Below, piece by piece: positions 1,404-31,184 of a DNA stretch of 31,184 nt. The notes under the pieces are model-generated. The model saw only the letters and a list, made by a program, of their open reading frames with translations, made no database searches and was not told the origin of the DNA. The stretch comes from Candidatus Hodarchaeaceae archaeon (lineage in GTDB: Archaea > Hadarchaeota > Hadarchaeia > Hadarchaeales > Hadarchaeaceae). Where the stretch lies: positions 1 through 31,184 of the forward strand of contig JASEGJ010000012.1 in assembly GCA_030018135.1 (NCBI GenBank). Direction: 5' to 3'. A program made the translations under genes and the position numbers. Every line of letters starts with the position of its first letter. The first letter of the stretch is position 1.

Positions 1404-1816
1404 TTACTGAATAAGCTTGTTAGAGATAATCCCATGGGCTTTCATGCTCGTGTAGCCGTCACTCCCGATTATCACGTGGTCCTGAATCCACACCCCTAGC
1501 ATCTTGCCAATTTTAACTAATTTTTTAGTGACCTCGATATCCGTCTCGCTGGGTTCCGGGCTCCCGCTTGGATGGTTGTGGACGAGGATGATGAAGGTGG
1601 CGGAGTTTTTGAATGCGCTCGCGAACACCTCTCGAGGGCGAAGCAAAGTTATGTCGACGCCCCGTCGGATATCGTCTCGCAGTTGATCAGCACGTTTTGG
1701 GAATCGAGGGAGATGAGCTTGACCACCTCGTGCGTAAGGGCCTGAACTTCCCGCCCGACCAACTCGAAAACATCTTTTGGACTCGTGATAAAAATTCTCC
1801 TGTTCTCTAATCCCAT
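1404..1816 (-). pseudogene. radC: Short RadC-family JAB/MPN protein with an apparent frameshift
   Basis: The C-terminal part carries RadC hallmarks: LLRPREVFASAFKNSA, then LVHNHPSGSPEPSETD, the JAMM zinc motif (H-x-H, Ser, Asp), then a DHVIIGSDGY end. The expected upstream RadC region is in a different frame: from ATG 1816 one reads MGLENRRIFITSPKDVFELV, then KLISLDSQNVL and ETISDG. The two frames meet near 1650-1660 next to a GGGG run; one extra G would join them into about 137 residues. This short form lacks the N-terminal helix-hairpin-helix of bacterial RadC. Despite the family name, RadC's biochemical role is unsettled, and the family is often found in mobile or accessory DNA. The longer open frame extending to 2081 is probably spurious. 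Confidence 0.7.
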
Positions 1817-1844
1817 TTTCCCGCCTAGGTTTTGGATGAGAGCG

Positions 1845-1857
1845 GTTTATAAAGACA
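1845..1857 (-). promoter_or_regulatory. TATA-like promoter for the RadC-like gene
   Basis: The minus strand reads ctttataaacc here, about 30 bp before ATG 1816, the spacing expected for an archaeal TATA box driving a short-leader transcript. It also supports 1816 rather than 2081 as the gene start. Confidence 0.4.
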
Positions 1858-1859
1858 AA

Positions 1860-2210
1860 ACTCGCTTCAAGGGCTGATAGCTTTAAGGCGCGCTTCCCCA
1901 GTCCACCGACCGCCCCACCCTTCCAGTACCCGATCACCGCATCGCCGCCCACCAGCTCCGATCTCGCCCCCTGAACCTCCGAAGCCTGTGTGGGGCAGGT
2001 CCCGACCCCTCTGGAGGACATCTGCATCCTCAACGTCCTCATCCCCGCCTCTACAGATGTTTCCCCGTCGTGGGGCGTCATCGCCCACCTGCCCTGAAGG
2101 CCCCAAGGACAAACTGGCTCCTCCGGAAACGGGCACGATTAGAGCAGTGCAACATCACCGCCTGCTGGAGGGACACGGCGGGAAATGGTACTTAAGCTGG
2201 TGAACGGGTT
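1860..2210. other. GC-rich stretch without a convincing gene
   Basis: About 350 bases lie between the RadC promoter and the antitoxin gene. Open frames exist on both strands (minus 1867-2136, plus 1988-2203), but their translations are low-complexity Gly/Arg/Pro or Ser-rich and match nothing I recognise. They look like the by-product of high G+C. It could be decayed coding sequence, an insertion-sequence end or a structured RNA; nothing in it decides. Confidence 0.4.
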
Positions 2211-2216
2211 GTGACC

Positions 2217-2555
2217 TCATTCCTCCGTCTCTACGACCATACGCTTTCCGACGACCCTTATCTCAACCCTGCGCCCGTGCCTCAGGCCGAGCATCCGCTC
2301 CACGTCCACGGGGATGTAAAGCGCCCATTTCTTCCCTATCCTAGAGACCTTGCGCTTAAGTCTGATCCCATGGCCCCAGATCCCGGCCTCCTCGGCGGCC
2401 GCCCTCAGCTTGGACGCCTGCTCCACGGTGAGCACCACCTCCCCGCACCGGTCACACTTCTCGACCTCGAGCCCCGCAACTAGCTTCACGCCTTCGACCA
2501 CGATGTCATCCCTCGCCTTGACGAGGGTTCCCTTCTTGCATTTAGGACACTCCAC
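2217..2555 (-). CDS. YgiT-type zinc finger plus AbrB/SpoVT domain protein (antitoxin-like)
   Basis: This 112-residue protein starts at GTG 2555. Residues 1-45 form an MqsA/YgiT-type zinc-binding module with two CxxC pairs (MECPKCKKG and EKCDRCGEVV). Residues 60-110 form an AbrB/SpoVT-like swapped-hairpin DNA-binding domain (RKVSRIGKKWALYIPVDV, GRRVEIRVVGKRM). In this class the zinc module typically contacts a toxin and the DNA-binding domain represses the operon. The start lies inside the end of the truncated toxin-like reading frame just upstream (14 bp overlap), the usual translational coupling of toxin-antitoxin pairs. The gene looks intact while its partner is shortened, so it may be an orphan antitoxin or a plain regulator. 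Confidence 0.75.
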   Translation of the reverse strand: MECPKCKKGTLVKARDDIVVEGVKLVAGLEVEKCDRCGEVVLTVEQASKLRAAAEEAGIWGHGIRLKRKVSRIGKKWALYIPVDVERMLGLRHGRRVEIRVVGKRMVVETEE

Positions 2556-2914: not shown

Positions 2915-3079
2915 GTGGAAAATCAAACTTGGATAACCGTACCTACCACGCTATTGGAAAGGTATACTTTTGTAATAGGGAACAAGCGGAAAACTGATCA
3001 AGCAAATCGAGAAGGACGGGTTGAAACCTTAAGCAAATGCAGGATTCGGGCCGAACCCGTTAAACCGCGCGTGAGATGA
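2915..3079 (+). CDS. Very small ORF with RHH-like start (doubtful)
   Basis: A 54-codon ORF starts from GTG 2915, preceded by gagaggaaaag. Its beginning (VENQTWITVPTTLLERYTF) resembles the strand and helix of small ribbon-helix-helix antitoxins, but the rest does not continue the pattern. It overlaps the end of the opposite-strand mptD gene by 20 bp. It may be a decayed antitoxin in this toxin-antitoxin-like strip or a chance ORF. Confidence 0.2.
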   Translation: MENQTWITVPTTLLERYTFVIGNKRKTDQANREGRVETLSKCRIRAEPVKPRVR

Positions 3080-3425
3080 ACATCAGCGGGTAGTCCAGCT
3101 CCCGCACATATCGCATGCCCACGCGCGCTCGAGCCTTGCCGTATTTTGCGAGGAGGTCAATCGTGAGCATCTCGCCAGACAGTTCCGGGTAGATGTAGGG
3201 GTGCCTGCGTCTACCCTTTGGGCACTTGATCTTCACCCTCGCCTCCTCGATGAACGGCTGCGCGAGCGCCGCCTGCTCCATCGCCCGCTCGAGCGCCTTG
3301 GCGTCGTGTATCGCCGCGCCCACGAACTGGTGGTAGAGGGCGCCGAGCGTTATCGCCCCCTCGAATATCGCCCGCTCGCGGTCCGTCACTCTCTTATCGA
3401 AGTACTTGCGCGCGGGGTCCTTCAC
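3060..3425 (-). CDS. mptD: Dihydroneopterin aldolase, archaeal MptD family
   Basis: MptD converts 7,8-dihydroneopterin to 6-hydroxymethyl-7,8-dihydropterin and glycolaldehyde on the tetrahydromethanopterin (or archaeal folate) path. Family landmarks are RERAIFEGAITLGALYHQFV near the N-terminus, a central QPFIEEARVKI and the C-terminal ELDYPLMFISRAV. Length (about 121 residues) suits the family. GTG 3425 is preferred because ggaggggat lies 3-8 bases upstream of it; a GTG at 3440 is also in frame. It follows mptE on the same strand with an 82-base gap, so consecutive pathway steps are side by side, which strongly supports both calls. Confidence 0.85.
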   Translation of the reverse strand: MKDPARKYFDKRVTDRERAIFEGAITLGALYHQFVGAAIHDAKALERAMEQAALAQPFIEEARVKIKCPKGRRRHPYIYPELSGEMLTIDLLAKYGKARARVGMRYVRELDYPLMFISRAV

Positions 3426-3507
3426 CTCATCCCCTCCCACGCCTTCTCGCCTTCAGGGCTAAATAACCGACGATGTCCAGCGGATATTGGAACTCGCGGG
3501 CCAACCT

Positions 3508-4233
3508 TCACCCAGCGACCTCCCGCGGCACGTTGGGGATGTCCTCCCCTCGGCTGGTGAGGTTGACGAGCCTCGCCTTAAGCTCGCCGGCGAGCCACGC
3601 CAGGAGCTCCTTGCATATGGCCAGCTTGACGAGCTTCCTCGCGATGTCCTTGTCGCCCGAATGCCTCCCCACCTGCCCGCCAAGGTCCATCCCGGCGAGG
3701 TAGATCTCGGACGCGCCCAGCTCGTGCGCCATGAACGCCGCGCGGTCGCCGTCCGTGAAGCCGCCGAAGTTGAGGAGCCCGCCGAATGGCTCGACCTGCG
3801 TCGTGCCAACGACGCGCTCCTTCAACCTTGGGGCGATGCTCAGGAGCTGATCGAGGTTATCGCCGTGGGCATGGACGACGAGCCAGGAACCCAGCCGCCA
3901 GGCGCGGAGCTGGTCCTCGATTTTGCCGTCCAGGTCCGTGACGATGATCTCGGGCCTGCGATGCTCGATCACCGCTGAGGTGGCGCCGTCCGCAGCTATG
4001 AGCACCTTCTCCAGGTATCCGGCCCGCCTTAGCCTAGTCAAATCCTCGTCCAGCGAGGGGCCGGCGCCGAACACCACGCACTCCCTCCCGCGCAGGGTGC
4101 CCGCCATTCCCTCGAGGTCCGGCTCTGGGAGGAGATCGTTCAGCGCCCTCGCGGCCTCCAGATCTGCGGCGGCATCCAGCCCCAGCCGCCCGACGATCTC
4201 CTCGTACTTAGGGCGCCAAACTTCCCAGCGCAT
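3508..4233 (-). CDS. mptE: 6-hydroxymethyl-7,8-dihydropterin pyrophosphokinase MptE
   Basis: MptE (DUF115) transfers pyrophosphate from ATP to the hydroxymethyl group made by MptD, preparing the pterin for coupling in methanopterin or folate synthesis. The 241-residue protein shows CVVFGAGPSLDEDLTRLR near residue 55, ADGATSAVIEHRRPEIIVTD near 83 (the nucleotide/pterin-binding DLDG region) and HAHGDN near 125. FGGFTDGDRAAFMAHELGA and AGMDLGG follow. It is unrelated to bacterial FolK. It begins at ATG 4233, ten bases after the stop of the transglutaminase-like gene, and is followed by mptD, so it is probably co-transcribed with both. Confidence 0.9.
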   Translation of the reverse strand: MRWEVWRPKYEEIVGRLGLDAAADLEAARALNDLLPEPDLEGMAGTLRGRECVVFGAGPSLDEDLTRLRRAGYLEKVLIAADGATSAVIEHRRPEIIVTDLDGKIEDQLRAWRLGSWLVVHAHGDNLDQLLSIAPRLKERVVGTTQVEPFGGLLNFGGFTDGDRAAFMAHELGASEIYLAGMDLGGQVGRHSGDKDIARKLVKLAICKELLAWLAGELKARLVNLTSRGEDIPNVPREVAG

Positions 4234-6764: not shown

Positions 6765-7766
6765 TCAGCGCCATCTAGCCCTCACCTCTTTGACCGCCTC
6801 CACCATCGCCCGAAGCTTTCCGATGGCTTCCTCTCGCGTCCTAGTTTTGAGCCCGCAGTCCGGGTCGATCCAAAGCTGCTCCGGGCTGAGGACCTCCAAG
6901 GCGCGGCCGATCCGCCTCTTCACCAGGCCGATGCCCTCGATGACGTGCGAGTGGACGTCGACCACCCCGAACGAGATGTCCTTGGTGAACGGGTGCCTCC
7001 GGAAGAGCTCCACCAGATCGAGCTCGCTGTTCGACATCTCCAGATCGAAGTTGTCCACGGGCAGCTCCAGCATCTGGGGATAGATGAACTCAAACGCGCC
7101 GTAGCACACGTGGGTGATGAAGTACGCGTCGATGCCCTTGGTGACGATGTCCAGTGCCTCGACCGCAAACTCCGGAAGCTCCTCCGGCCTGGTGGAAAGT
7201 GCCGGCTCGTCGATCTGGATTATCTTGGCCCCGGCCAGCGCGAGCGCCTCGACCTCCTCGTGCAGCGCGCGCGCGAGGTCCAAGCAGGCCTCCCTTCGGC
7301 TCGGGTAGTACTCGTTGAAGGACCAGTCCATCATGGTGTACGGCCCCGTGATCATCCCCTTGACCGGCTTCTTCGTCAGCCCCTGGGCGAACTTCCACCA
7401 CTCCACCGTGATCGGGCCGCGCCAGCGCACCTTGCCCACGATGATGGGCTTCCTGTAGTAGCGGTTGCCGTACGAGCGGACGAGCCCGCTTATCGCGAAG
7501 CCGTCGAGGTTCTCCGCGAAGTGCGTCGCCATATCGCCGCGGTACATCTCCCCGTCCACAAGCACGTCCAGCCCGACCTCCTCCTGCAGCGCGATCCAGT
7601 CGCGCGTGGCCCGCTGCTCGAGCGGACGCAGTTCTCCTAGGGTGAGCTTTCCCGCCAGCAGCTTCTGCCTCGCCTCGAGCAGCTCTGGGGGCTTCGGATA
7701 GCTGCCCACCGCAGTCGTCGGGAGCAGCGGCAACTCCAGTCCGAGCCTTCGAAGCTTTTCCCGCAT
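6765..7766 (-). CDS. Core methionine synthase (MetE C-terminal-type), catalytic copy
   Basis: This 333-residue TIM-barrel protein matches the C-terminal catalytic barrel of MetE without the N-terminal folate-binding barrel. Zinc ligands are in place: His and Cys in THVCYG (about residue 217-219), Glu in DLEMSN (about 243) and Cys in DPDCGLKTR (about 302). It should transfer a methyl group to homocysteine. Core synthases of anaerobic archaea are proposed to take the methyl from a corrinoid protein rather than a methyl-folate. The substrate-binding TTAVGSYPKP start and IDEPALS motif are present. Its ATG directly follows the stop of the second barrel gene (7767), so the two are translationally coupled. 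The sub-family (MesB, MesC or other) cannot be settled by eye. Confidence 0.88.
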   Translation of the reverse strand: MREKLRRLGLELPLLPTTAVGSYPKPPELLEARQKLLAGKLTLGELRPLEQRATRDWIALQEEVGLDVLVDGEMYRGDMATHFAENLDGFAISGLVRSYGNRYYRKPIIVGKVRWRGPITVEWWKFAQGLTKKPVKGMITGPYTMMDWSFNEYYPSRREACLDLARALHEEVEALALAGAKIIQIDEPALSTRPEELPEFAVEALDIVTKGIDAYFITHVCYGAFEFIYPQMLELPVDNFDLEMSNSELDLVELFRRHPFTKDISFGVVDVHSHVIEGIGLVKRRIGRALEVLSPEQLWIDPDCGLKTRTREEAIGKLRAMVEAVKEVRARWR

Positions 7767-8747
7767 CTAGATGACCTCCCTCGCCCTTTGCGCGATCGAT
7801 ACCATGTTTTTGAGCTTCGCGAACGCGACGTCGCGCGGCAGGTATTCCAGCCCGCAGGACGGGTTCAAATAAGCGCGGTCGGCTTCGACGTGCGCGAGTA
7901 TGCGCCTCAGCAACGAGATCGTTTCTCCCTCGCCCTCGATCCTCGTGTTGCGCGCGTCGATCAACCCTAGCCCGAGCTCCTTCTCAGAGCCCGATGCCTC
8001 TATGGCGCCCACCAGCCTTTTGCCGTAGGTGAAGTCGAGCCCCAGCGCGTCCACCTGCAGCTCCTGAAGCTCGTCGTAGAGGGGGGCGGCATCGCCGAAG
8101 TATAAGTAAAGGGCAAGCCGGGCTCCGTGCTTTCGCCCCGCCAGTCTTTCAACCGCTGTGCGCAGAAGCTCGAAATCTCTAGGATTTTTTAATATCGCTG
8201 GCTCGTCGATTTGAATTATCTCAGCACCGACCTTCACCAGCTCCTCGACCTCATTTGCGATGACCTGCGCGAGGTCGGCAACTACCGAGGGAAAATCCTC
8301 GTAGTACCTATTGATGGAAAGCTTGGCGAGGGTATAGGGCCCGGTGAGCACCGGCTTGACGGGGACGGGGGAAACGCCCTTCGCGAAGACGAACTCATCC
8401 CTGACGATGGGCGCCGCCCAACGCAAACGCCTCACGATCACCGGCTGGCGGAAGTAGGTGTTGGTGTCGAAGAACCTGAGGAGGCCGTTTATCTCGCAAC
8501 CCTCAAGCCCCTTGGCGAAGTGGGAGACCTGGTCGTACCACCGCACCTGCCCGTCGGTCACGATGTCCAGCCCAGCCCTCGCCTGCTCTTGAATCACCTC
8601 CCCCGTGACCTCGTTTTGTACCTCTCCAAATTTTTCGTCCGAGATCTCGCCCTTCTCCCACTGCGCGTAGGCCCGCCGCAGCCTCTGCTGCTCGGGCAGG
8701 TCGCCGATGCGGGGGTAACTTCCGGCGTTCGTCGTCAAAAGCTCCAT
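7767..8747 (-). CDS. MetE-like TIM-barrel protein lacking most zinc ligands
   Basis: This 326-residue paralogue of the next gene keeps the TNAGSYPRIGD start, IIQIDEPAI and NPSCGLEYLP. The HxC pair is replaced by YLYFGD and the Glu position reads GLDFTYG, so a normal catalytic zinc site is unlikely. This mirrors full-length MetE, whose N-terminal barrel has lost its zinc site, and suggests that the two genes form a split, two-barrel enzyme in which this one supports methyl-donor docking. ATG 8747 fits the family start. The upstream in-frame extension to 8921 runs through the divergent promoter and the opposite gene, so I reject it. The next gene's ATG follows without a gap. Confidence 0.82.
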   Translation of the reverse strand: MELLTTNAGSYPRIGDLPEQQRLRRAYAQWEKGEISDEKFGEVQNEVTGEVIQEQARAGLDIVTDGQVRWYDQVSHFAKGLEGCEINGLLRFFDTNTYFRQPVIVRRLRWAAPIVRDEFVFAKGVSPVPVKPVLTGPYTLAKLSINRYYEDFPSVVADLAQVIANEVEELVKVGAEIIQIDEPAILKNPRDFELLRTAVERLAGRKHGARLALYLYFGDAAPLYDELQELQVDALGLDFTYGKRLVGAIEASGSEKELGLGLIDARNTRIEGEGETISLLRRILAHVEADRAYLNPSCGLEYLPRDVAFAKLKNMVSIAQRAREVI

Positions 8748-8776
8748 GCCATCCCGAAAAGAGGATATGGGGGGGC

Positions 8777-8787
8777 GCATAAAATAG
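8777..8787. promoter_or_regulatory. Shared TATA-like element between divergent metE-like and marker-14 genes
   Basis: The plus strand reads gcataaaatag, an AT-rich box readable on both strands in a GC-rich gap. It is about 25-30 bp from ATG 8812 on the plus strand and about 32 bp from ATG 8747 on the minus strand, so it could position transcription either way. This favours near-leaderless starts and possible co-regulation. Confidence 0.4.
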
Positions 8788-8811
8788 TTGCTATCAGGTT
8801 GGGTCGAGAGG

Positions 8812-10173
8812 ATGCAACCTAGGATGGTACGGATCCCGGAGATGGGCGCGGTGGATCTCAGTGGAAGGCCGTATTTCATCGTGGCGTCAGTCGAGCTCGG
8901 CAACGTTGTCACGAAATGCACGTTCGTCGCGACCGACCTAGAAACCCGCCGGACTTATGTTCTGGGCGGGGGTGCGCGACCCACGCGGGAGATCAGGCCA
9001 CCGGGACCGGACGAGGGGATAATCGGGAGGACCGTCGCCGGAGTCGAGCTCGCCGAGACCTCGGTGGAGGAATTTGTGGCAGATGTCGTGCGACTCTCGC
9101 TTGAGTCGGCGAGGCTAAACCTCGACGACCTGCACTTCGTCGTCTGCTCCACAGATGCGGTCGCTGGGCTCGCCAGCCCATCCGAGGTCGATGCGATCGT
9201 CAAAACTATTGCGAACGGTTGCTCGGCAGCTGGCGTGCGACCCGAGCAAATGGTGCCGCCGCTTGAGCCCACTGACATGCCGACCGAGTTGAGATCGTTC
9301 TCCGCGCTCGGCCGGAGGCGATTTGATGGCATCGTCGCGGGCATGCGCACATTTGGTCGAACTCGTTTGAGCGCGAATCAGATGAAGGGCGAGCTGGCCC
9401 TGGCGGGGGTGAAGGAGGGCGCGCGATCGGTCGTCGTCGACCTTCGCAATCCTGTCATGGCAATACATTTCGGAACGTTGCTCGCCGGGTTGGTGACCGG
9501 CGATGAAGAGCTCGCGAGCCCGGTCGGGATAATCTGCGGTTTGGGCGGCGCCATACCTGACGCCATGGCGAGGGGCTCCGGCGGTGTTGACCGGAAGCTT
9601 GGAGCGGCGCTCGATCTCCCTCCCGCGAGGGGCGATGCGTACGCTGAAATGGCGGGGGAACTCGCGGCTAGGGCGATGAAAACGGTCGGGATAGGAAGGG
9701 TCTCAGTTGGCAGACCAAGCGTCGGAATGATACCCATCGACACTAGGGCTGCGTACGAAGCTGGCGCGGTGCCGATCGGCTGCGATGTTGGGCGGGATGG
9801 TAAAGACCTGCCGAAGCTCATCGAGCTCGGATGCGATGCGGCCAGCTATGGACTGCCCACCTTGCATGCGACGATCGATCGCACCTGCGCACAGGTGGTG
9901 GCGCGACTCATAAAAACGGCTGACGACGAGGGGCTGCTAACAGAGCGAACGGCGTTCGGCATAGCCGGGCGAGCGGGCATAACGGGCGATAAGCCGAGGC
10001 TCGTGCTTGAGCTGCTGGGCGACATGGGGTTTGACGACATCGCCAACCGCGTGGTCTTCGTCGGGGATGGCTTGGCCCTCGGCGGCGCGGTCAGGGCGCG
10101 TTGTTTATGTGCCCTTTGCCCAGCCTGCCCGCCCCTGTGCGGTGCGCGGGGCAAGGACTTCAGTGCTTTTTGA
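8812..10173 (+). CDS. Methanogenesis marker protein 14 family (ASKHA-like)
   Basis: This protein of about 453 residues closely follows the methanogenesis marker 14 pattern (TIGR03285 as I recall it): RPYFIVASVELGNVVTKCTF at the start, an acetate-kinase/actin-like phosphate loop region, then LHFVVCSTDAVAGLASPSEV, ANQMKGELALAGV and the C-terminal FVGDGLALGGAV. The family is described as typical of methanogens, with function unknown; the fold suggests an ATPase. ATG 8812 is chosen for its spacing to a TATA box; ATG 8824 and 8842 are also possible. The extreme C-terminus is unusually Cys-rich (C-x-C-x2-C-x2-C-x3-C). It is divergent from the core methionine synthase pair, and its stop overlaps the ligase stop by 14 bp in convergent orientation. 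Confidence 0.8.
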   Translation: MQPRMVRIPEMGAVDLSGRPYFIVASVELGNVVTKCTFVATDLETRRTYVLGGGARPTREIRPPGPDEGIIGRTVAGVELAETSVEEFVADVVRLSLESARLNLDDLHFVVCSTDAVAGLASPSEVDAIVKTIANGCSAAGVRPEQMVPPLEPTDMPTELRSFSALGRRRFDGIVAGMRTFGRTRLSANQMKGELALAGVKEGARSVVVDLRNPVMAIHFGTLLAGLVTGDEELASPVGIICGLGGAIPDAMARGSGGVDRKLGAALDLPPARGDAYAEMAGELAARAMKTVGIGRVSVGRPSVGMIPIDTRAAYEAGAVPIGCDVGRDGKDLPKLIELGCDAASYGLPTLHATIDRTCAQVVARLIKTADDEGLLTERTAFGIAGRAGITGDKPRLVLELLGDMGFDDIANRVVFVGDGLALGGAVRARCLCALCPACPPLCGARGKDFSAF

Positions 10174-11828
10174 CCTGCCCCTGGTAAATTTCCCTTACCC
10201 TTTGGATGGTGTCGGCTTCCTCCGGTCCCTTATCCTCACGAACTCTGGTTACCCTGGCGAAACGCAGGGCCATGCCGCACTTGTACTTTGGGCTCCGCTG
10301 GACCTCGTTGTAAGCCACCTCCACCACTATTTTGGGAGTCACGATGACGCGCCGCCCCTCCCGCTTGACGGTCAGCTCCTTCAGCCGCTCGGTCATCTCG
10401 ACGATCTCTCTATCGGTGAGCCCCTTGAAGGTCTTGCCGACGATTAAGAACTCTCCCGTCTCGGCGTCGCGGGCCGCGAGGTAGTAGTCCGATAGCCACT
10501 CGTGGCGCCTCCCATAGCCGTACTCGGCAGCGACGATGACCAAGTCGAGCGGCTCCAGCACCGGTTTGACCTTCAACCAAAGCTTGCCCCGCAAGCCGGG
10601 CGTGTAGTGGCCGTCGAGCCGCTTCGCCATAAGCCCCTCGTGTCCGGCGCGCAATGCGTCATCTAGGAATCGCTCCGCATCCCCAACGTTGCTGGTGGTG
10701 AGCTGCTCGATCAGCGGTATGCCATCTGCGACCTCGGCAAGCTTGGCACGACGCTCATGATATGGAAGGTCGACCAAGCTCACGCCGTCGAGAAAGATGA
10801 TGTCGAAAAGGTAAAGTCCGACCGGCAGCTCCTGCATCATTTGCTTGATTTCCCGCTCCCTCCGGAAGCGCTGCATCAGGTATTGAAACGGTAGCGGCTT
10901 TCCCTGCTTGTCCAGCGCGATGATCTCCCCCTCGAGGATTGCCTCGCGGACTTGGAGCCCGTGCGCCCGCCTGACCACCTCCGGCAGACTTTCCGTCACG
11001 TCCGTCAGCCTGCGGCTGAAGATCCTGACAACATCGTCGGACTTATGAATTTGGACGCGGGCGCCATCTAGCTTGTGCTCGAACGCCGCCTCGCCGCCGT
11101 GTATTTTTAGCGCCTCCCTGATGCTGTCAACGCTTTGGGCCAGCATGGGCTGAATTGGCCTGAGGACTTGAGGTCGTAGCGCGGCCACGCCCTCCTCGCC
11201 ACGTTTCCTCGCAACCCTTGCGACATCGGCAACATCGCCGACAAACATCGCCGCCCGCTGAACCAGCTTTTGGGGCAAATCGAATGCCCTTGCAACGGCG
11301 AGTTCCATCAGACCCTCCTGAAAGCCCGTCCTCATCTCACCCACGATTATCTTGACCAAGTACTTCACCTCGAGCGGCACCGCGTTGCCCAGCAGTGCCT
11401 CGAGCAACCTCTTCTTTCGTTCGCGGGCGCCCGGACCGCGAGCCTCAGCGATGCCATCGAAAGTCCAACTGACGTCGAGTATGCCGAGCGGCCTTTCGAT
11501 CAGTGCGGCCTGTCGCCTGACCTTGCTGGACTCGAACACCATCGCTGCCGCTGCGCCCAAGTCGCCAGTTTTATCGAAGGCCTTTGCAAATCGCTCGTGT
11601 TCAACCTGCGTCAGCCGCCGGATTACATCGTAGAGTGCAGCCCAGCTGATATCAAGTGTCTTTTGACTCCACCTTGGAAACGCGCGGCCCAAAATCATCG
11701 ATACTGCTGGCTCGAGTTCCGCCGGTTGAAGCCCGCGCAGGAACCCTGCGACAAGCTCGACCATCTCCCCCCTCCCGCGCATCGCCCCGAGTTTTTCGCA
11801 GAGCTCAGCCAACTTCTCGAAATTTCAT
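10160..11828 (-). CDS. lig: ATP-dependent DNA ligase (archaeal LigB type), apparent 1-bp break at the 5' end
   Basis: This replicative/repair ligase seals nicks through an enzyme-AMP intermediate. The adenylated lysine lies in EHKLDGARVQIHK (about residue 245). Other nucleotidyltransferase motifs follow: SRRLTDVTESLPEV, ILEGEIIALD, FDIIFLDG, EGLMAKRLDG and WLKVKP. The length of about 555 residues and the N-terminal helical DNA-binding domain fit the archaeal family. The uninterrupted frame begins at TTG 11812 (AELCEKLGAM). Family members usually begin M-x-F-x-ELAE; here ATG 11828 reads MKFREV and then stops, while removing one base near 11815 gives MKFRELAELCEKL. Either TTG initiates or the sequence has an insertion. 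Confidence 0.93.
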
Positions 11829-11907: not shown

Positions 11908-11937
11908 TTCGTGCTTAACACAAATTTTGGGTCATCG

Positions 11938-12873
11938 ATGGGGAAGGGCAGCGGTTTTGGAAAGGTGATCTTGTTAAACGAGCACTTCGTCGTCTACGGC
12001 GTGCCGTCGATCGTTTCCGCGATCGAGCAAGCGACGGTCGCGCTGGTGGAGCCGTTCGATGGTCGAGGCTGGATCATAGAGGATCGAAGGCCAGCTACGC
12101 CGGGCTACAAGGAGGAGAAGCTGGATCAGCAGAGGGGGTCCATCGAAAGAGTTTTAAAAGCTGCTAAAATTGACCCCTCTCGAAATCCGATTAAAATCGT
12201 GCTCGAAGGGGACTTGGTCGCGTCGAGCGGAATTGGAGCCAGCGCCGCGTCCTGCGTTGCCATCGCTAGGGCGCTGTCGGACGAGTTCGGCTTGGACCTC
12301 TCGGATGAAAGGGTAAACGAGATAGCCTACGAGGGCGAAAGGGCATACCACGGAACTCCCTCCGGGATCGACAACACGGCGGCAACTTACGGAGGCCTCA
12401 TCTGGTTCGTGCGGGGTACCCTAAACGTGATAGAGAGGATCAGAATAAGGAAGCCAGTCGAAATCGTGATGGGGAACACCGGCATGGTCGCGGACACCGC
12501 GGCGGCGGTAGCGGGGGTTCGCGAGCGCAGGGAAAGATATCCGGAGAAATACGACAAGCTGTTTAAGGCCGCGGAGGGGCTGGCGCGTGACGCTAGGAGG
12601 GCCGTTGAGGATTTTGACCTGAGGGAGTTGGGAAGGCTGATGGACGAGAACCACAAGCTACTGCAGGGGATAGAGGTCTCCTGCAAGGAACTTGATTTTT
12701 TGGTCGAGCTGGCGCGGAAGCATGGCGCACTCGGTGCAAAGCTGACCGGGGGAGGCCTCGGGGGCAACATGGTCGCGCTCACGCCGGGCAAGGAGCTGCA
12801 GGAGCGAGTGGCAAAGGCTATAGAGAAGGAGGGCTTCGAGGTCCTCAGGACGAGAATCGGGGTGAAAACATGA
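11938..12873 (+). CDS. mvk: Mevalonate kinase
   Basis: This GHMP kinase phosphorylates mevalonate to mevalonate 5-phosphate for archaeal lipid synthesis. The 311-residue protein shows the GHMP order: GSGFGKVILLNEHFVVYGVP at the N-terminus, the ATP loop DLVASSGIGASAASCVAIAR near residue 93, GTPSGIDNTAATYGG (substrate and catalytic region, about 140) and KLTGGGLGGNMVAL near the C-terminus. The TGA overlaps the ATG of the UbiD-type gene (ATGA). Co-location with the UbiD and aconitase-X genes shows that phosphomevalonate is probably fed into the dehydratase branch. Confidence 0.93.
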   Translation: MGKGSGFGKVILLNEHFVVYGVPSIVSAIEQATVALVEPFDGRGWIIEDRRPATPGYKEEKLDQQRGSIERVLKAAKIDPSRNPIKIVLEGDLVASSGIGASAASCVAIARALSDEFGLDLSDERVNEIAYEGERAYHGTPSGIDNTAATYGGLIWFVRGTLNVIERIRIRKPVEIVMGNTGMVADTAAAVAGVRERRERYPEKYDKLFKAAEGLARDARRAVEDFDLRELGRLMDENHKLLQGIEVSCKELDFLVELARKHGALGAKLTGGGLGGNMVALTPGKELQERVAKAIEKEGFEVLRTRIGVKT

Positions 12874-14144
12874 ACATGCGCGAGTTCGTCGAGTTCCTCG
12901 ACGAGAAGGGGCTTCTAATAAAAATAGGGAGGCAAGTAAGCGTCAGGTACGAGGCGGCGGCCCTGATGAAAATGCTGGACGGGAAGCCGATCCTCTTCAA
13001 AAATGTCAAGGGATTCGAGATGTCGGTGGCGGCGAACGTCTGCTCCTCGAGGGAGCTAATAGCGATGGGGCTGGGGATAAAGAAAAATGAGATCATAAGC
13101 AGGCTGACGAAGGCCATCGATCACCCGAAGGAGCCCAAAGTGGTGGAGGCAGAAGGTTACGAGGAAATCGACGCCGACCTCACGAAGCTCCCGATCCTGA
13201 CGTACTACCCCATCGACGGGGGACCATACATCTCCTCCGGCGTCGTCGTGGCGAGCGACAGGGACCTCGGTCTCAACGCTTCGTTCCACAGGATGATGGT
13301 CATAGGAAAAGACGAGGTGGCGATGAGGATACTTCCGAGACACTTTGACGAGTTCCTGAAGCGGGGAAACAAGGAGTTCGCGATATGCATCGGAAATTCA
13401 GTGCCGGTGCTCGTGGCCTCCGCTGTCTCGGCGGAGCTCGGGAAGAGCGAGTTGAGTATCGCAAACGCCTTGGCTGAGACGAATCTGATGGAGTTCGACG
13501 GGCACAAGGTTCCGGAGGCTGAGATAGTCATGATCGCGGAGATGACCGACGAGCTGCACGACGAGGGACCCTTCATAGACCTGACCGAGACGCCCGACAT
13601 CGTCCGAAAGCAGCGGGTGGCGAGGATAAAGAAAATATTCGTAAAAAAGGACCCGATCTTCCAGGCGCTGCTTCCGGGCGGCTTGGACCACAAGTTATTG
13701 ATGGGGATGCCCCGCGAACCCACTATCTTCAGGGAAGTCAGCAAGGTTTGCGAGTGCAAGGATGTCCTGATAACCCCCGGGGGATGTTCTTGGTTGCACG
13801 CTGTCGTCAGCATAAGGAAAAAGGGACCGGACGACGGCAGGAAGGCGATAGAGGCCGCCCTCAGGGGACACAAGTCGCTAAAACACATTTTCGTGGTCGA
13901 CGATGACATAGACATCCACAACCCCGGCGAGGTGGAGTGGGCGATGGCGACGAGATTTCAAGGCGACCGAGACATGATCATCAGAAGGGAGCCCGGCTCC
14001 TCGCTGGACCCGTCCTCAGACCTTGAAACGAGGGACACCGCAAAGGTGGGCTTCGACCTGACGATACCTTGGGGGAGGGACAAAAGAGAGTTCAGGAAGC
14101 CCGACCTGCCGATGAAGCTCGACCTCAAGGATTACCTGGAGTGA
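12870..14144 (+). CDS. UbiD-family decarboxylase, probable trans-anhydromevalonate 5-phosphate decarboxylase
   Basis: This 424-residue UbiD-family protein probably depends on prenylated FMN. Landmarks are DADLTKLPILTYYPIDGGPY near residue 95, PEAEIVMIAEMTDE (the Glu region) and DEGPFIDLTETPD. The late segments EVEWAMATRFQGDRDMII and SSLDPSSD are also typical. UbiD members decarboxylate many unsaturated acids, so sequence alone does not give the substrate. Position decides it: the gene is coupled to mevalonate kinase and followed by both aconitase-X subunits, matching the archaeal mevalonate variant in which phosphomevalonate is dehydrated and the product decarboxylated to isopentenyl phosphate. 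A UbiX-type prenyltransferase and an isopentenyl phosphate kinase are not in the window. Confidence 0.88.
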   Translation: MNMREFVEFLDEKGLLIKIGRQVSVRYEAAALMKMLDGKPILFKNVKGFEMSVAANVCSSRELIAMGLGIKKNEIISRLTKAIDHPKEPKVVEAEGYEEIDADLTKLPILTYYPIDGGPYISSGVVVASDRDLGLNASFHRMMVIGKDEVAMRILPRHFDEFLKRGNKEFAICIGNSVPVLVASAVSAELGKSELSIANALAETNLMEFDGHKVPEAEIVMIAEMTDELHDEGPFIDLTETPDIVRKQRVARIKKIFVKKDPIFQALLPGGLDHKLLMGMPREPTIFREVSKVCECKDVLITPGGCSWLHAVVSIRKKGPDDGRKAIEAALRGHKSLKHIFVVDDDIDIHNPGEVEWAMATRFQGDRDMIIRREPGSSLDPSSDLETRDTAKVGFDLTIPWGRDKREFRKPDLPMKLDLKDYLE

Positions 14145-14148
14145 TGGC

Positions 14149-15333
14149 TTGTACCTGACGAAAGAGCAGGAGCGGATGTTGAGCGGGGAGTACGGCGAGG
14201 TCCTGGAGCGGAACTTCAGGTTGCTCGTCAGGTTGGGCGAAATCTACGGCGCCGATAGGATGATCCCCGTGGGCTCGGTTCAGGTCGCTGGCGTCTCCTA
14301 CAAGTCCATCGGCGACCCGGGACTTGAGTTCCTTGAGGACCTGGCGGACAAGGGGGCTAGAGTTAGGGTGCCGACCACCCTGAACCCGCCCGGCATGGAC
14401 CTCGAGGACTGGAGGGAGCTCGGCTTTCCTAGGGACTTTGCCGAGAAACAGCTGAGGATAATCGACGCCTTCCGCAGGATGGGTGTGGCGATGACTGCGA
14501 CTTGCACCCCCTACCTCGTCGGCAACCTTCCGCGCTTCGGCGAGCACCTCGCTTGGTCCGAGTCGTCGGCGGTCTCCTTCGCGAACTCGGTGATCGGGGC
14601 GCGGACGAACCGCGAGGGCGGGCCCTCGGCGCTCGCGGCGGCGCTCTGCGGGGTGACTCCCAACTATGGACTGCACCTTGACGAGAACCGAAGGCCGAGC
14701 GTCGTGATAAAGGTCGATGCCGAGCTGAGGCGCGAGTCAGATTTCGGCGCCCTGGGCTACCACGTCGGAAAGACCATCGAGAAGGGGGTGCCCTACTTTT
14801 ATGGAATCAAGGACGCCGATGTCGACCAGCTGAAGGCCCTCGGCGCCGCGATGGCTGCGTCGGGGGCTATTGCCTTGTACCACGTCGAGGGCCTGACGCC
14901 GGAAGCTACTCTCGTGACAACCGGAGGGCTCGGGACGATCGAGGTCGGCGAGCGGGAGCTGAGGGAGGCCCACGAGGGGCTCAACACCGGGCGGGAGCCG
15001 GACATAGCCATCCTCGGCTGCCCCCACGCCTCGCTGGCGGAGATCGCGGAGCTGGCGGGCAAGCTCGAGGGGAGGCGCCTCCGCAAGCCCCTCTGGATCT
15101 GCACCGCGCGCGCGACCAAGCGGGCGGCGGCTGAGATGGGACTCGTCGATAAGATAGAAAGAGCTGGAGGCAAGGTGGTCGCCGACACCTGCGCGGTGGT
15201 CGCGCCCATCGAGCGCATGGGCTTTAAGTGCACGGCCGTGAACTCCGGCAAAGCGGCGAACTACCTGCCGGGCTTTTGTAAGCAGGCCGTCGTCTTCAAA
15301 AGCGTCGACGAGATATTGGAGATGGTGACATGA
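14149..15333 (+). CDS. Aconitase-X large subunit, probable phosphomevalonate dehydratase large subunit
   Basis: This 394-residue protein belongs to the AcnX/DUF521 catalytic family, an iron-sulfur dehydratase related to aconitase. It starts at TTG 14149 with ggagtgatgg just upstream; no in-frame ATG is available. Family segments include VGSVQVAGVSYKSIGDPGLE, VPTTLNPPGMD, TCTPYL near residue 118, SFANSVIGARTNREGGPSAL, LGCPHASLAEI, and DTCAVVAPIERMGFKC toward the end; the conserved cysteines are candidates for cluster ligation. In this operon the substrate is inferred to be mevalonate 5-phosphate, giving trans-anhydromevalonate 5-phosphate. Hydroxyproline- or other acid-directed AcnX relatives exist, but the neighbours argue against them. 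The 3' end overlaps the small-subunit ATG. Confidence 0.9.
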   Translation: MYLTKEQERMLSGEYGEVLERNFRLLVRLGEIYGADRMIPVGSVQVAGVSYKSIGDPGLEFLEDLADKGARVRVPTTLNPPGMDLEDWRELGFPRDFAEKQLRIIDAFRRMGVAMTATCTPYLVGNLPRFGEHLAWSESSAVSFANSVIGARTNREGGPSALAAALCGVTPNYGLHLDENRRPSVVIKVDAELRRESDFGALGYHVGKTIEKGVPYFYGIKDADVDQLKALGAAMAASGAIALYHVEGLTPEATLVTTGGLGTIEVGERELREAHEGLNTGREPDIAILGCPHASLAEIAELAGKLEGRRLRKPLWICTARATKRAAAEMGLVDKIERAGGKVVADTCAVVAPIERMGFKCTAVNSGKAANYLPGFCKQAVVFKSVDEILEMVT

Positions 15334-15713
15334 AGGGCAGGGCGATCAGCCCGGGCAGGGCGAGCGGCGAGGCGCTGGTCTCGAGGGAACCCCTGAGCTT
15401 CTACGGCGGGGTAGACCCCAAGACAGGCATGGTCACGGAAAGGGGGCACGAGCTCGAGGGCAAATGCGTGAAGGATAAAATCCTGGTCTTCCCCCGCGGA
15501 AAGGGCTCGACCGTCGGCTCCTACGTGATCTACGGGCTGAAGAAAAACGGCGTCGCCCCCGCCGCGATCGTCAACAAGGAGACGGAGACCATCGTGGCGA
15601 CTGGAGTCATCTTAGCTGGAATCCCCTGCGTCGATGGAATTGATATAGACAAGATCAAAACAGGGGACAGGCTGACGGTGGATGGCGACAACGCAGTTGT
15701 CGAGCTTGGGTAA
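15330..15713 (+). CDS. Aconitase-X swivel (small) subunit, probable phosphomevalonate dehydratase small subunit
   Basis: This 127-residue protein (DUF126) corresponds to the aconitase swivel domain. Typical pieces are GRAISPGRASGEALVSREPL, KILVFPRGKGSTVGSYVIYG, APAAIVNKETETIVATGVIL, IPCVDGID and a final GDRLTVDGDNAVVEL. The PRGKGSTVGSY loop is the serine-containing substrate-binding element of the family. ATG 15330 overlaps the large-subunit stop (ATGA), so the two chains are made in equal amounts. It ends the mevalonate operon; the next gene has its own TATA-like box. Confidence 0.92.
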   Translation: MKGRAISPGRASGEALVSREPLSFYGGVDPKTGMVTERGHELEGKCVKDKILVFPRGKGSTVGSYVIYGLKKNGVAPAAIVNKETETIVATGVILAGIPCVDGIDIDKIKTGDRLTVDGDNAVVELG

Positions 15714-18105: not shown

Positions 18106-18342
18106 CTAGACCCCCTCGAATTCCTCCACGCTGGCGTCCAACCGGTAGCCTAAGAAGAGCCCGTCCAGGGTTATGTTACTCACATTACTCACGCCGATGT
18201 TGCCCTTCCCGCGCAGCACGAGCAACTCCTCGAATATCAGGAAGTCGACCTCACGCGCCGCGATTATGGCGAATGATCTCCCATTTGCGCCTTTCGCGCC
18301 ACATTTTCTGCGCTCGAGATTTTTTATGCAAAAATCGACCAT
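18106..18342 (-). CDS. Small hypothetical protein
   Basis: A 78-residue ORF starts from ATG 18342, immediately preceded by cttttaaaa on the minus strand. The second half has strong G/C third-position bias and a plausible beta-rich sequence (EVDFLIFEELLVLRGKGNIG, LDGLFLGYRLDASVEEF). I recognise no family. It diverges from the metal-transporter operon with 71 bases between starts, so it could be a regulator or partner of that operon, though no DNA-binding motif is visible. Confidence 0.45.
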   Translation of the reverse strand: MVDFCIKNLERRKCGAKGANGRSFAIIAAREVDFLIFEELLVLRGKGNIGVSNVSNITLDGLFLGYRLDASVEEFEGV

Positions 18343-18413
18343 TTTTAAAAGGTTTCAGATTTGAACCGATCCAAAAAGCTTTTAACCGCTGGTCGCCTAG
18401 AATTCCGTTGCCG

Positions 18414-19286
18414 ATGTCCAAAACTCGGAGGTCTGAGTTATTGAAGGGCCAGAGGATTATTCCATCGCTCGTCATCGCCGCCTTGATGATTTTAGGGTAC
18501 CTCTCACTTGGCCCGCGCGGCGAGGAAAAGATCATCGCATTTTGCGGCTCGGCCTCCAAACCAGCGCTGGAAGCCGCTGCCTCGGCATTCGAGAGGAAGA
18601 CAGGGATAAGGGTGGAGCTGCAGTTTGGAGGCTCGGGTGCGATGCTCTCAAGGATGGAGATCTCCGGGAGCGGTGACCTTTACATTCCCGGCTCGCCCGA
18701 CTACATGGCGAAAGCGGTTGAGGAGGGCATCGTAGACGAGGACAGCATTCGAACCCTAGCTTACTTAGTTCCGGCGATCATAGTGCCCAAAGGCAACCCT
18801 AAGGGCATCACCGAGCTGCGGGATTTAGCTAAGGCTGGCGTAAGGGTTGGGATCGCTGACCCGGAATCGGTTTGTATCGGCGAGTACGCGGTCGAGCTCC
18901 TGAAGCACAATCTCCTCTACGATGAGGTGAGCAAAAACATAGTCGTGTATGCCGAAAGCTGCTCCAAGGCCGGCGCACTGGTCCCGATTGGCGCGGTCGA
19001 TGCCGTCATAGGCTGGGATGTCTTTCACAGGTGGAACCCAGATAAGGCCGACATCGTCCATATCGAACCCCACGCAAAGATACCGAGGCTCGCCTACATA
19101 CCCGCGGCGATCTCCAGCTACAGCAAAAATGTAGGGGGTGCGAGGCAATTTCTAGACTTCCTTTCCTCACAAGAGGGCCGCGAATATTTCGAGAACGCGG
19201 GCTACTTAACCACAGAGGGGGAGGCCAGAAAATATGCGCCGGATGCAGAGGTCCCGAGCATTCGGCAGCTCCTGGAAAAAATTTAA
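18414..19286 (+). CDS. ABC transporter substrate-binding protein, molybdate/tungstate type (ModA/WtpA-like)
   Basis: This 290-residue binding protein starts at ATG 18414, with an aaaaagcttttaa TATA-like region about 30-40 bp upstream. An N-terminal hydrophobic anchor (IIPSLVIAALMILGYLSL) puts the rest outside. The mature part follows the ModA-like pattern: FCGSASKPALEAAASAFERK, QFGGSGAMLSRMEISGSGDL, YIPGSPDYM, and DAVIGWDVF in the second lobe. No lipobox Cys is seen next to the hydrophobic stretch, so anchoring would be by the uncleaved helix. Permease and ATPase genes follow on the same strand. Oxyanion specificity (Mo or W) cannot be told from sequence by eye; sulfate-type relatives are less likely. 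Confidence 0.85.
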   Translation: MSKTRRSELLKGQRIIPSLVIAALMILGYLSLGPRGEEKIIAFCGSASKPALEAAASAFERKTGIRVELQFGGSGAMLSRMEISGSGDLYIPGSPDYMAKAVEEGIVDEDSIRTLAYLVPAIIVPKGNPKGITELRDLAKAGVRVGIADPESVCIGEYAVELLKHNLLYDEVSKNIVVYAESCSKAGALVPIGAVDAVIGWDVFHRWNPDKADIVHIEPHAKIPRLAYIPAAISSYSKNVGGARQFLDFLSSQEGREYFENAGYLTTEGEARKYAPDAEVPSIRQLLEKI

Positions 19287-19316
19287 TCATAGCATAACTA
19301 AAGTTGCGGGGAGAAG

Positions 19317-20111
19317 ATGAGGCTAAACGGGAATAGGTCCTTCAGCTCCTTCAGCTTTCTGGCGTTGGCGTCGCTCCTCGCCCTCTTCCTGTTCTTCGTA
19401 ACCTTGCTGCTCTCGGTGTTTCTCTACGTCGGCCCGCGCGAGCTTGCATCCTCGCTGCTATCGGAGGAGATCCTCTTCTCCATTCGATTGAGTTTGATCA
19501 CAGCGACGATGGCGACGGCAGCTTGTCTACTCGTGGCCGTCCCTGCCGCCTATGCCCTCTCTAGATTCAATTTTCGTGGCAAGGGATTGGTCGATGTCCT
19601 ACTCTACCTACCCATAGGTATGCCCCCCGTGGCCCTAGGTGCAGCGCTGCTGATATTCTTCGGTACACCTATGGGGGGGATCTTCTCTGCGAGGTTCGTA
19701 TTCGAGGTCCCAGGGATAATCTTGGCCCAGTTTGCGGTCATCAGCGCCTTGGCGACGAAGATAATGAAATCGACCTTCGACGGCATAGACCCGGAGTACG
19801 AGTCCGTGGCGAGAACCCTCGGGTGCAGCAGGTTTCAGGCATTTTACAAGGTGGCCCTGCCCCTAGCGAAAGGCGGGCTCATAACCGCGGTCGCCATCTC
19901 ATGGATCAGGGCCCTGGGCGAGTTCGGGGCAACGGTCATGCTTGCGGGGGCGACGAGGATGAAGACGGAGACCCTGCCAGTGGCGATATTCCTCAACCTT
20001 GAAACGGCGGATGTGGTGAAGATGTCGGCGGCAGTCCTGATACTTGCGGGGGTCGGTTTGACGGCGTTGATCTTGATCCATAAACTTGGAAAAAGGTGGC
20101 CGGCGGTTTGA
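19317..20111 (+). CDS. ABC transporter permease, molybdate/tungstate type (ModB/WtpB-like)
   Basis: This 264-residue integral membrane protein has about six hydrophobic helices. The EAA loop that docks the ATPase reads YESVARTLGCSRFQAFYKVA followed by LPLAKGGLITA, and the conserved late motif is WIRALGEFGATVMLAG, typical of the CysTW/ModB group. It starts 30 bases after the binding-protein stop at ATG 19317 and overlaps the ATPase gene by 16 bp. Confidence 0.92.
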   Translation: MRLNGNRSFSSFSFLALASLLALFLFFVTLLLSVFLYVGPRELASSLLSEEILFSIRLSLITATMATAACLLVAVPAAYALSRFNFRGKGLVDVLLYLPIGMPPVALGAALLIFFGTPMGGIFSARFVFEVPGIILAQFAVISALATKIMKSTFDGIDPEYESVARTLGCSRFQAFYKVALPLAKGGLITAVAISWIRALGEFGATVMLAGATRMKTETLPVAIFLNLETADVVKMSAAVLILAGVGLTALILIHKLGKRWPAV

Positions 20112-20809
20112 TAAGGGTAGAAAATCTCTCCATGCGGTTGGGCAATTTCGCTCTGACTGATGTGAATCTACGAGTTCAGAGGGGGGAACACTCGATTATC
20201 CTTGGGCCGATAGGCAGCGGCAAAACCACGCTCTTGAAATGCATCGCCGGCATTTACCGCCCGGACAGCGGGAGGATAGAGATGGACGGCGAGGACGTGA
20301 CGGAGCTGCCCCCCGAGAGGAGAAACATCGGCTATGTCCCGCAGGACTACAGGTTGTTCCCTCACCTGACGGTCAGCGAGAACATCTCGTTTGGGTTGAG
20401 GGTCAGAAGGTCGGGCAACTTGGAGGATAGGACGAGGGCGATGCTCGATCTGGTAGGCCTGTCCGACCTCTCGAGGCAATGCATAAAATGCCTGAGCGAG
20501 GGACAAAAACAGCTTGTGGCGCTGGCTAGGGCACTGGCAATTCAACCCAAGGTACTGCTGTTGGATGAGCCCTTCACTAGGCTGGACTCGACGGCGAAGG
20601 TAAGGCTTCGGAGGGAGCTGAGGAGGATTCACGAGCAGACAGGGGTAACGATAATTCACGTCACGCACGATTTCGAGGGGTCCTTGAACTCGAGGAATAG
20701 GGTCGCGATAATGAACGACGGGCGGCTGGTGCAAGATCTCTCCGAAATCAAGAAATATCTGGATGAAAAACTCGGGTACATCCCGATAGATCTGAGGGCA
20801 GGGGGCTGA
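20096..20809 (+). CDS. ABC transporter ATP-binding protein, molybdate/tungstate type (ModC/WtpC-like)
   Basis: This 237-residue ATPase has all nucleotide-binding motifs: Walker A GPIGSGKTT (about residue 38), Q-loop VPQDYRLFPHLTV, signature LSEGQKQLVALARAL, Walker B VLLLDEPF, D-loop and the switch His in IHVTHDF. It lacks the C-terminal MOP/TOBE regulatory domain of long ModC proteins, so metal-dependent trans-inhibition at that domain is absent. Initiation is at GTG 20096, inside the permease end, or TTG 20108. Confidence 0.92.
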   Translation: MAGGLIRVENLSMRLGNFALTDVNLRVQRGEHSIILGPIGSGKTTLLKCIAGIYRPDSGRIEMDGEDVTELPPERRNIGYVPQDYRLFPHLTVSENISFGLRVRRSGNLEDRTRAMLDLVGLSDLSRQCIKCLSEGQKQLVALARALAIQPKVLLLDEPFTRLDSTAKVRLRRELRRIHEQTGVTIIHVTHDFEGSLNSRNRVAIMNDGRLVQDLSEIKKYLDEKLGYIPIDLRAGG

Positions 20810-27233: not shown

Positions 27234-27704
27234 TCACTCCCTTCCCTTGGCCGCATCTAAAATTGCGTCGATGATCTGTCTGTAGCCCGTGCACCTGCAG
27301 AGGATGCCGCCCACTGCCTCCTTCACCTCGTCCTCGCTGGGGTGGGGGTTCCTCTTCAGCAGCGCCTCCCCGGCGACGATGAACGCGGGGGTGCAAAAGC
27401 CGCACTGCACCGCGCCGTGCTCGATGAACGCACGCTGGAGGCGCGTGAGTTTCTCCCCCTTCGCCAGCCCTTCGATGGTCGTCACCTCTCGCCCATCGAC
27501 CTCGACCGCCAACACTAGGCAAGATTTAACTGGCTCCCCATCCATGAGGACCGTGCATAACCCGCAGTCCCCGCGCTCGCACGCGCGCTTGGTGCCGGTC
27601 ATCTCGAGGTCCTCCCGAAGGAGCTGAAGCAGGGTCCTGTTCGCCTCGACCTCCAGCTCGTGGCGCTCGCCGTTGACCGAGAATGAAATTTTGTGCCTCG
27701 ACAT
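27234..27704 (-). CDS. Molybdenum hydroxylase small subunit, two [2Fe-2S] clusters
   Basis: This 156-residue subunit of the xanthine dehydrogenase/aldehyde oxidoreductase family carries electrons from the Mo site to FAD. The plant-type ferredoxin cluster uses CERGDCGLC plus a later Cys (VKSCLVL). The second, helical cluster uses QCGFCTPAF and ILCRCTGYRQI. ATG 27704 overlaps the stop of the medium-subunit gene (ATGA); the longer in-frame extension to 28007 is antisense-like and rejected. It is the last gene of the operon. Confidence 0.94.
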   Translation of the reverse strand: MSRHKISFSVNGERHELEVEANRTLLQLLREDLEMTGTKRACERGDCGLCTVLMDGEPVKSCLVLAVEVDGREVTTIEGLAKGEKLTRLQRAFIEHGAVQCGFCTPAFIVAGEALLKRNPHPSEDEVKEAVGGILCRCTGYRQIIDAILDAAKGRE

Positions 27705-28564
27705 CAGCTCACCCCAAGCAGCTGCCTGAGAACCCGTCTCGTGAGTACGCCGGCCATGTGCAGGCGATACTCCCTGCTGGCCCGAACATCGGAGATCGGG
27801 GAAATTCTCTGCACAACGACTGAAGCAGCTTTCTCTATTCGCTCCTCTATCGAACCCTCCCCCCGAAATATATCCTCGACCTCGGAGATGAGGAGCGGCG
27901 TTGGGGCGACGGATGATAGCGCGACGCGCACGAACTTCTTGCCGGAGTCTGCCGCGAGGGCCGCGACCCCCACTACTGCCAGGTCCTCGCCTCGCGTGCG
28001 CCCCCACTTTAGATAGTCGCTCTTGGCCCCTTCCGGCGGATTCGGTATCCGCACACCCCTGACGAATTCGCCTCGCTCAAGGGTCGTCCGCTTGACGCCC
28101 ACGAAGAAGTCCCGGATCGGGATTGTCCTCTCGCCCCTCGCACCCACGACCTCCACCCCTCCATCGAGAACCAGAAGCGCCGGAGCGGTGTCGGCTGCGG
28201 GGGAGGCGTTGCATATGTTGCCCACCAGCGTCGCACGGTTCCTTATCGTCGGGTCTGCCAGCACGCTCGCCGCCTTCCAGAGCGCGCCGAAGCGCTGCTC
28301 GACGATTTCCGAGCCGATCAACTCATTCAGCGTGACCGCAGCGCCGATCATCAGCCCTCGCCCTTTGTCCCACGAGAGCTCGCGCAACTCCTCGATGCCC
28401 TTGATATCTATCACGCACTTCGGCCTGACAAGCCTGTCTCTCATCAATACAAAAAGATCGGTACCTCCCGCAAGTATTTTTGCATCCGCTCCGTGCCCAG
28501 CGAGCAAGGAGACGAGCCCCTCGATCGTTTTCGGCCTGAAGTAGCTAAATTCAGGTAGCGGCAT
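27704..28564 (-). CDS. Molybdenum hydroxylase medium subunit, FAD-binding
   Basis: This 286-residue FAD subunit resembles CoxM/CutM. FAD-binding motifs are AKILAGGTDLFVLMRD (about residue 30) and TIRNRATLVGNICNASPAAD (about 107), followed by the CO-dehydrogenase flavoprotein C-terminal domain. The start overlaps the large-subunit end by 14 bp and the stop overlaps the small-subunit start, so the three chains are tightly coupled. It passes electrons to an acceptor that cannot be named from sequence. Confidence 0.93.
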   Translation of the reverse strand: MPLPEFSYFRPKTIEGLVSLLAGHGADAKILAGGTDLFVLMRDRLVRPKCVIDIKGIEELRELSWDKGRGLMIGAAVTLNELIGSEIVEQRFGALWKAASVLADPTIRNRATLVGNICNASPAADTAPALLVLDGGVEVVGARGERTIPIRDFFVGVKRTTLERGEFVRGVRIPNPPEGAKSDYLKWGRTRGEDLAVVGVAALAADSGKKFVRVALSSVAPTPLLISEVEDIFRGEGSIEERIEKAASVVVQRISPISDVRASREYRLHMAGVLTRRVLRQLLGVS

Positions 28565-30893: not shown

Positions 30894-31184
30894 CACTCGT
30901 CCTCCTGTCCACCTCCATTGCGAAGTCTTAAAAATTTTTCCTCGTAATCGCCACGCTTTGGTTAATCTCTCGCTAACATTTTTGATGAATTGAGCCCACG
31001 CGGTTTCCATGTTGCAAGTAACGTCATGATCGTCTCGTGGATTGAGGGTCGTCCTCAAGCACAAGCTTAGTTGATTATAGGGCTTGTAGAGCTTGTGTAG
31101 GGCTCTTCGGGTAGGCTTAGCCCCATAACGGTGCCGTTCAAATAAGGCTTTAATTTTTGAACCATAATCCATCGTCAATGGAGA
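30894..31184. other. Region upstream of the molybdenum hydroxylase operon; promoter and an in-frame open extension
   Basis: A minus-strand AT block (30927-30939, aaaaatttttaag) is a likely TATA element for the operon. Upstream, the large-subunit frame stays open on the minus strand to the window edge (from 31178, MDYGSKIKALFERHRYGAKP and onward), with codon use more AT-rich than the gene itself. It may be the tail of an unrelated or decayed gene, or chance. Nothing else is recognised. Confidence 0.35.

Follow-up and report, generated by a model that had tools for sequence, protein, structure and literature searches.

A divergent methanogenesis marker 14 protein beside a split methionine synthase in an archaeon with no Mcr or Mtr genes detected

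The window, that is, the whole stretch of 31,184 nucleotides analyzed here, carries a gene of the methanogenesis marker 14 family (DUF2114) on the forward strand. The gene spans positions 8812–10173 with its stop codon (10171–10173), starts with ATG at 8812, and encodes a protein of 453 amino acids in its coding part of 8812–10170. An earlier, sequence-only reading of this DNA had proposed this family, and the assignment was confirmed by a profile search with TIGR03285, which gave 423.9 bits against the curated cut-off of 274; PF09887 matched at 430 bits. The protein is full length and shares approximately 45% identity with family members from methanogens and Asgard archaea. Among 84,980 named species scanned, a set from which the window's own genome and those near to it may be absent, the best relative was 46% identical. 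No solved structure related to marker 14 by sequence was found, and literature searches by name found one paper on marker 14 and none on DUF2114.

Two genes of the MetE family lie in tandem on the reverse strand, divergent from marker 14. The gene adjoining marker 14, metB, occupies 7767–8747 (7770–8747 without the stop codon), and metA occupies 6765–7766 (6768–7766 without the stop codon). In the case of MetA, PF01717 matched at 288 bits and NF003317 at 409 bits (cut-off 406), and all zinc ligands were retained (ITHVCYG, EMSNSE, and PDCG). In the case of MetB, the H-x-C and Glu zinc ligands were missing (LYLYFG and LDFTYG), and the MetE N-domain model PF08267 matched at 116 bits, although PF01717 matched at 149 bits. 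Both proteins aligned with MetE enzymes of known structure over the C-terminal half of the latter, MetA far better than MetB, and both fell below the cut-off of the MesA-type model NF002119. The pair is a split MetE, with a catalytic half carrying the H-x-C/E/C ligands next to an N-like half lacking them, as in PF1268/PF1269 of Pyrococcus, where one of two adjacent genes has the zinc ligands and the other does not; no unusual difference from the Pyrococcus pair was found. Core methionine synthases (MesA, MesB, and MesC) have a single catalytic domain with no partner N-half, are thought to draw on corrinoids, and form groups distinct from split MetE. The sequence-only reading had described a split core methionine synthase; the two tandem MetE-family genes are as it described them, but the core assignment was ruled out by the missing zinc ligands in MetB and its PF08267 match. 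For the split MetE of archaea, methyl-pterin is the predicted methyl donor (PMC7857596), and the window's enzyme probably takes its methyl group from methyl-pterin, not from a corrinoid. Genes for an MptD-type dihydroneopterin aldolase (3060–3440, or 3063–3440 without the stop codon; PF04038) and an MptE-like pterin pyrophosphokinase (3508–4233, or 3511–4233 without the stop codon; PF01973), both on the reverse strand, are indeed present 3 kb from the MetE pair, as had been read from the sequence, and are consistent with pterin use.

The start codons of metB and marker 14 are separated by a gap of 64 bp (8748–8811). Since the element ATAAAATA, read at about 8779–8786, lies 25–30 bp from either start codon, it is plausible as a TATA box directing transcription both ways. 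A scan for sigma-70-type promoters returned nothing, as expected for an archaeal host.

The conservation of this neighborhood was evaluated in 28 genomes of 0.6–1.3 Mb each from the host's small phylum, probably Hadarchaeota, and marker 14 was found in only one of them, the genome of the window (G000). The metA–metB pair stands side by side in 13 relatives, none of which has marker 14. The usual order in these relatives is MptE, a transglutaminase-type protein, a hypothetical protein, metA, and metB, and in eight of the 13 a mevalonate kinase gene is divergent from metB. The closest relative (G005) has the ligase gene directly behind metB, after a gap of 103 bp. In the genome of the window, this MetB/ligase gap is occupied by marker 14, whose tail overlaps the tail of the ATP-dependent DNA ligase gene (10160–11812, reverse strand; PF01068), the right border of the insertion. 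A chimeric contig was ruled out because both flanks are native and follow the synteny of the family. A conserved marker 14–MetE neighborhood was likewise ruled out, the only other case among the loci read being of the Methanopyrus type and involving MesA. The adjacency is lineage-specific, and the neighborhood appears accidental.

The genome of the window comprises 1.11 Mb in 45 contigs and is 92.9% complete. Profile searches found no mcrA (PF02249) in the window or anywhere in the assembly, so the observation of the sequence-only reading that no mcr gene was visible holds for the whole assembly. MtrA, MtrH, and CdhD/E were also not found in this assembly (PF04208 and PF02007 were among the profiles searched), nor was RACo (PF14574). 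Because the assembly is only 93% complete, these absences are not proof. Unlike the usual carriers of marker 14, which have Mcr or Mtr, the host is thus without mcr, mtr, or cdh genes as far as assembled. The window copy is a warning that marker 14 alone is no proof of methanogenesis or corrinoid chemistry.

The distribution of the family was determined in 394 genomes. Marker 14 occurred in 69 of them, with MtrA in 68 and mcrA in 59 of the 69. Nine marker 14 genomes besides that of the window lack mcrA, and in all nine the gene is no more than about 2 kb away from MtrA or an MtrA–MtrH fusion. Seven of these nine belong to an Asgard family of the Thorarchaeota type, in which the genes run MetF C-terminal-domain protein, MetF, MtrH, MtrA, MtrH, marker 14, CofE, and LarC. 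In a wider set, marker 14 was present in 44 of 227 Asgard genomes, and MtrH was directly upstream of it in all 30 Asgard loci read. In Methanobacteria-type families, marker 14 follows mtrH or lies within a few kb of it, near the mcr–mtr region. The gene is unlinked to mtr in families f25, f30, f44, and f120, and it is absent from the Mcr-bearing families f35 and f94 and from three genomes that have a divergent mcrA and belong to the same order as the window's genome. Those three genomes (G024, G025, and G026) also carry CdhD/E and lack MtrH. In Methanopyrus-type genomes (L055:9365–12259; also L057, L109, and L118), marker 14, DUF2115, and a MesA-type core synthase are encoded consecutively, a few kb from mtr.

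With regard to the corrinoid activator RACo, 37 of the marker 14 genomes with MtrA lack it, 31 genomes carry marker 14 together with RACo, and about 20 genomes encode MtrA homologues but neither marker 14 nor RACo. The last two counts rule out strict complementarity between marker 14 and RACo, and marker 14 must be dispensable for some MtrA because these roughly 20 genomes have neither protein. The distribution supports the conclusion that the marker 14 family tracks MtrA/MtrH rather than Mcr. Accordingly, the proposal of the sequence-only reading that marker 14 serves methyl transfer, not methanogenesis itself, is supported at the level of the family by linkage and the neighborhood survey in other genomes, but not by this locus. 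The main text of a 2022 survey ties a marker m26 to Mtr and has it persist in Thorarchaeia (PMC9635834); m26 is probably marker 14, as the distribution fits, although the Pfam name does not appear in that main text. Within the literature searched, four points are new: the explicit operon with its counts, the incomplete coverage by RACo, the order marker 14–DUF2115–MesA, and the loss of nucleotide motifs in a member whose archaeal host has no Mtr.

The structure model of the window's protein was confident (pLDDT 87.8) and displayed the two-domain actin-like fold of the ASKHA superfamily. In the structure search, 81 PDB chains matched with an E-value of 0.001 or better, ASKHA proteins ranking highest, and the first four Foldseek matches included Kae1-type proteins and RACo (3zyy). 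With VIA-align, sugar kinases, FtsA, and the MbdO- and HgdC-type electron activators scored at Z 16–18, with a maximum of 17.9. The modeled ASKHA fold cannot by itself choose among kinases, FtsA, and activators, and the neighborhood helps. Like RACo and RamA (PF14574), marker 14 has the ASKHA fold, and the family's neighborhood with a corrinoid methyltransferase suggests similar work. Unlike them, it has no PF14574 match and thus falls outside their family, lacks a ferredoxin domain, and has only two C-terminal Cys conserved across its own family. The match to the ATP-driven electron activators of the HgdC/MbdO type extends over 245–248 residues at Z 16–17, but marker 14 has no sequence match to them. 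In those activators, the cluster Cys stand at other positions of the chain than in marker 14.

The state of the window copy was assessed in an alignment of 132 distinct marker 14 members (the window copy and 131 others), in which 112 highly conserved columns were scored. The window copy was changed at 34 of these columns, compared with 0–5 in 126 core members, and it kept 72% of the conserved columns, compared with 95–100% in members equally diverged at variable columns. Moreover, 12 columns kept in at least 130 of the 131 other members were altered. The phosphate-1 loop (residues 28–35; 8893–8916, forward strand) reads ELGNVVTK instead of the family's ELGNTTTK, with T32V and T33V at positions kept in 130 and 131 of the 131 other members, respectively. 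The phosphate-2 loop (residues 219–226; 9466–9489, forward strand) reads HFGTLLAG instead of DFGTTLAG, with D219H and T223L at positions kept in all 131. The remaining changes are R112C, G115D, E190Q, E192K, V307I, N433C, G443C, and the loss of the last Cys (C448). The C-terminus (10096–10170, forward strand), which overlaps the 3′ end of the ligase gene and lacks this last family Cys, has gained four Cys (CLCALCPACPPLC). The copy stays a marker 14 member, though a divergent one, because the lost residues lie outside the formal family definition. In the marker 14 tree, it sits on a long branch.

A C-terminal frameshift was ruled out, as the family motif does not reappear in another frame, and an odd base composition was ruled out by a codon-position G+C like that of other members. 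The pattern suggests either relaxed constraint or a new job, and the proposed nucleotide site is available here in a naturally altered form. Two other divergent members (in G196 and G122) adjoin MtrA/H and have kept the loop residues. Two divergent members without mcrA (L034:6514–7896 and L035:1532–2872) share with the window copy a gained Cys at residue 436 in the numbering of the window's protein. In G122 (L035:3050–6057), marker 14 is divergent from an MtrA–MtrH fusion gene, which is followed by a thymidylate-synthase-like gene.

The best explanation overall, to which we give a probability of roughly 60%, is that the family works with MtrA/MtrH and that the window copy is a displaced member whose ancestral job has probably been lost. 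The family would consist of ASKHA-fold proteins working with the MtrA/MtrH step from methyl-pterin to corrinoid, and its role would be the ATP-driven upkeep, probably the reductive reactivation, of the MtrA cobamide. We infer an activator because of the nucleotide loops, the two conserved Cys, the adjoining corrinoid methyltransferase, and the 37 MtrA genomes without RACo. A 2025 paper on the structure of Mtr names ATP-dependent Mtr activator enzymes as uncharacterized (PMC12774963), and marker 14, which adjoins MtrA/MtrH whether or not Mcr is present and frequently where RACo is missing, is a concrete candidate. However, its separation from mtr in families of the Methanosarcinaceae and Methanococcales types, the roughly 20 MtrA genomes with neither protein, and the occurrence of the ASKHA fold in kinases and other proteins speak against this explanation. 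In the case of the window copy, a full-length protein is still encoded between the ancestral split MetE operon and the DNA ligase gene, in this lineage only, and its link to MetE is positional, with shared transcription at most. The copy is probably without its ancestral job because the nucleotide-motif residues and the last Cys are lost and the partner, Mtr, is absent; nevertheless, the open frame and the four gained Cys suggest some function. It is possible, if doubtful, that marker 14 is the missing ATP-dependent MtrA activator and, at the same time, that the window copy was repurposed, with its nucleotide site lost and its Cys cluster serving another partner.

Plain decay, in which a relict or transferred gene drifts without function while its frame is still open, would fit the concentration of changes at the most conserved columns, the last Cys motif, which is cut short where the gene overlaps the ligase gene, and the long branch. 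It is unlikely given 453 open codons with a coding-type base pattern like that of relatives, the confident fold model, the clustered gain of four Cys, and the approximately 45% identity to the family still present. The copy might instead now serve the one stand-alone MtgC/MtbC-like corrinoid protein of this RACo-less genome, which has a B12-binding cap and a B12-binding domain (contig 1, L211:9511–10134) and adjoins a 351-aa protein reading like a UroD-type methyltransferase (the two together at L211:9511–11176). We consider such retargeting quite unlikely: the corrinoid protein is on another contig, unlinked to marker 14, its 351-aa neighbor has no significant family match, the loss of T32, T33, and D219 speaks against ATP-driven reduction, and the proposal rests on one genome.

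The sequence-only reading had marker 14 maintain the activity of a corrinoid that supplies methyl groups to the adjoining methionine synthase. The common promoter gap and the Methanopyrus-type gene order favor this, MesA being predicted to use MtrA (PMC7857596), but it is very unlikely here. The adjoining synthase is a split MetE of the methyl-pterin type, the genome lacks MtrA, MtrH, and CdhD/E, relatives have the same MetE pair without marker 14, and the nucleotide motifs of the copy are altered. That reading had conceded that its idea would fail if the adjacency were unique to this contig and the genome were that of an ordinary methanogen; the adjacency is indeed unique, whereas a genome without mcrA, MtrA, and MtrH is no ordinary methanogen. 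A part in Mcr function, the original sense of "methanogenesis marker", is hardly credible even though mcrA accompanies marker 14 in most of its genomes (59 of 69) and the gene lies near the mcr–mtr region in Methanobacteria-type genomes. The distribution largely refutes it, with nine other genomes having marker 14 and MtrA/H but no mcrA, and with marker 14 absent from the Mcr-bearing families f35 and f94 and from G024, G025, and G026.

Elsewhere in the window, a RadC-domain gene lies near an MqsA-like zinc protein gene (1404–2555, reverse strand). Genes for a mevalonate kinase-type protein, a UbiD-type protein, and two aconitase X proteins follow consecutively at 11917–15713 (forward strand), an isoprenoid set conserved in the family. 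An ABC transporter with a solute-binding protein, a permease, and an ATPase, possibly for tungstate or molybdate, is encoded at 18273–20809 (forward strand), and a xanthine dehydrogenase/CoxLMS-type molybdopterin hydroxylase operon occupies the end of the window (27234–31178, reverse strand).
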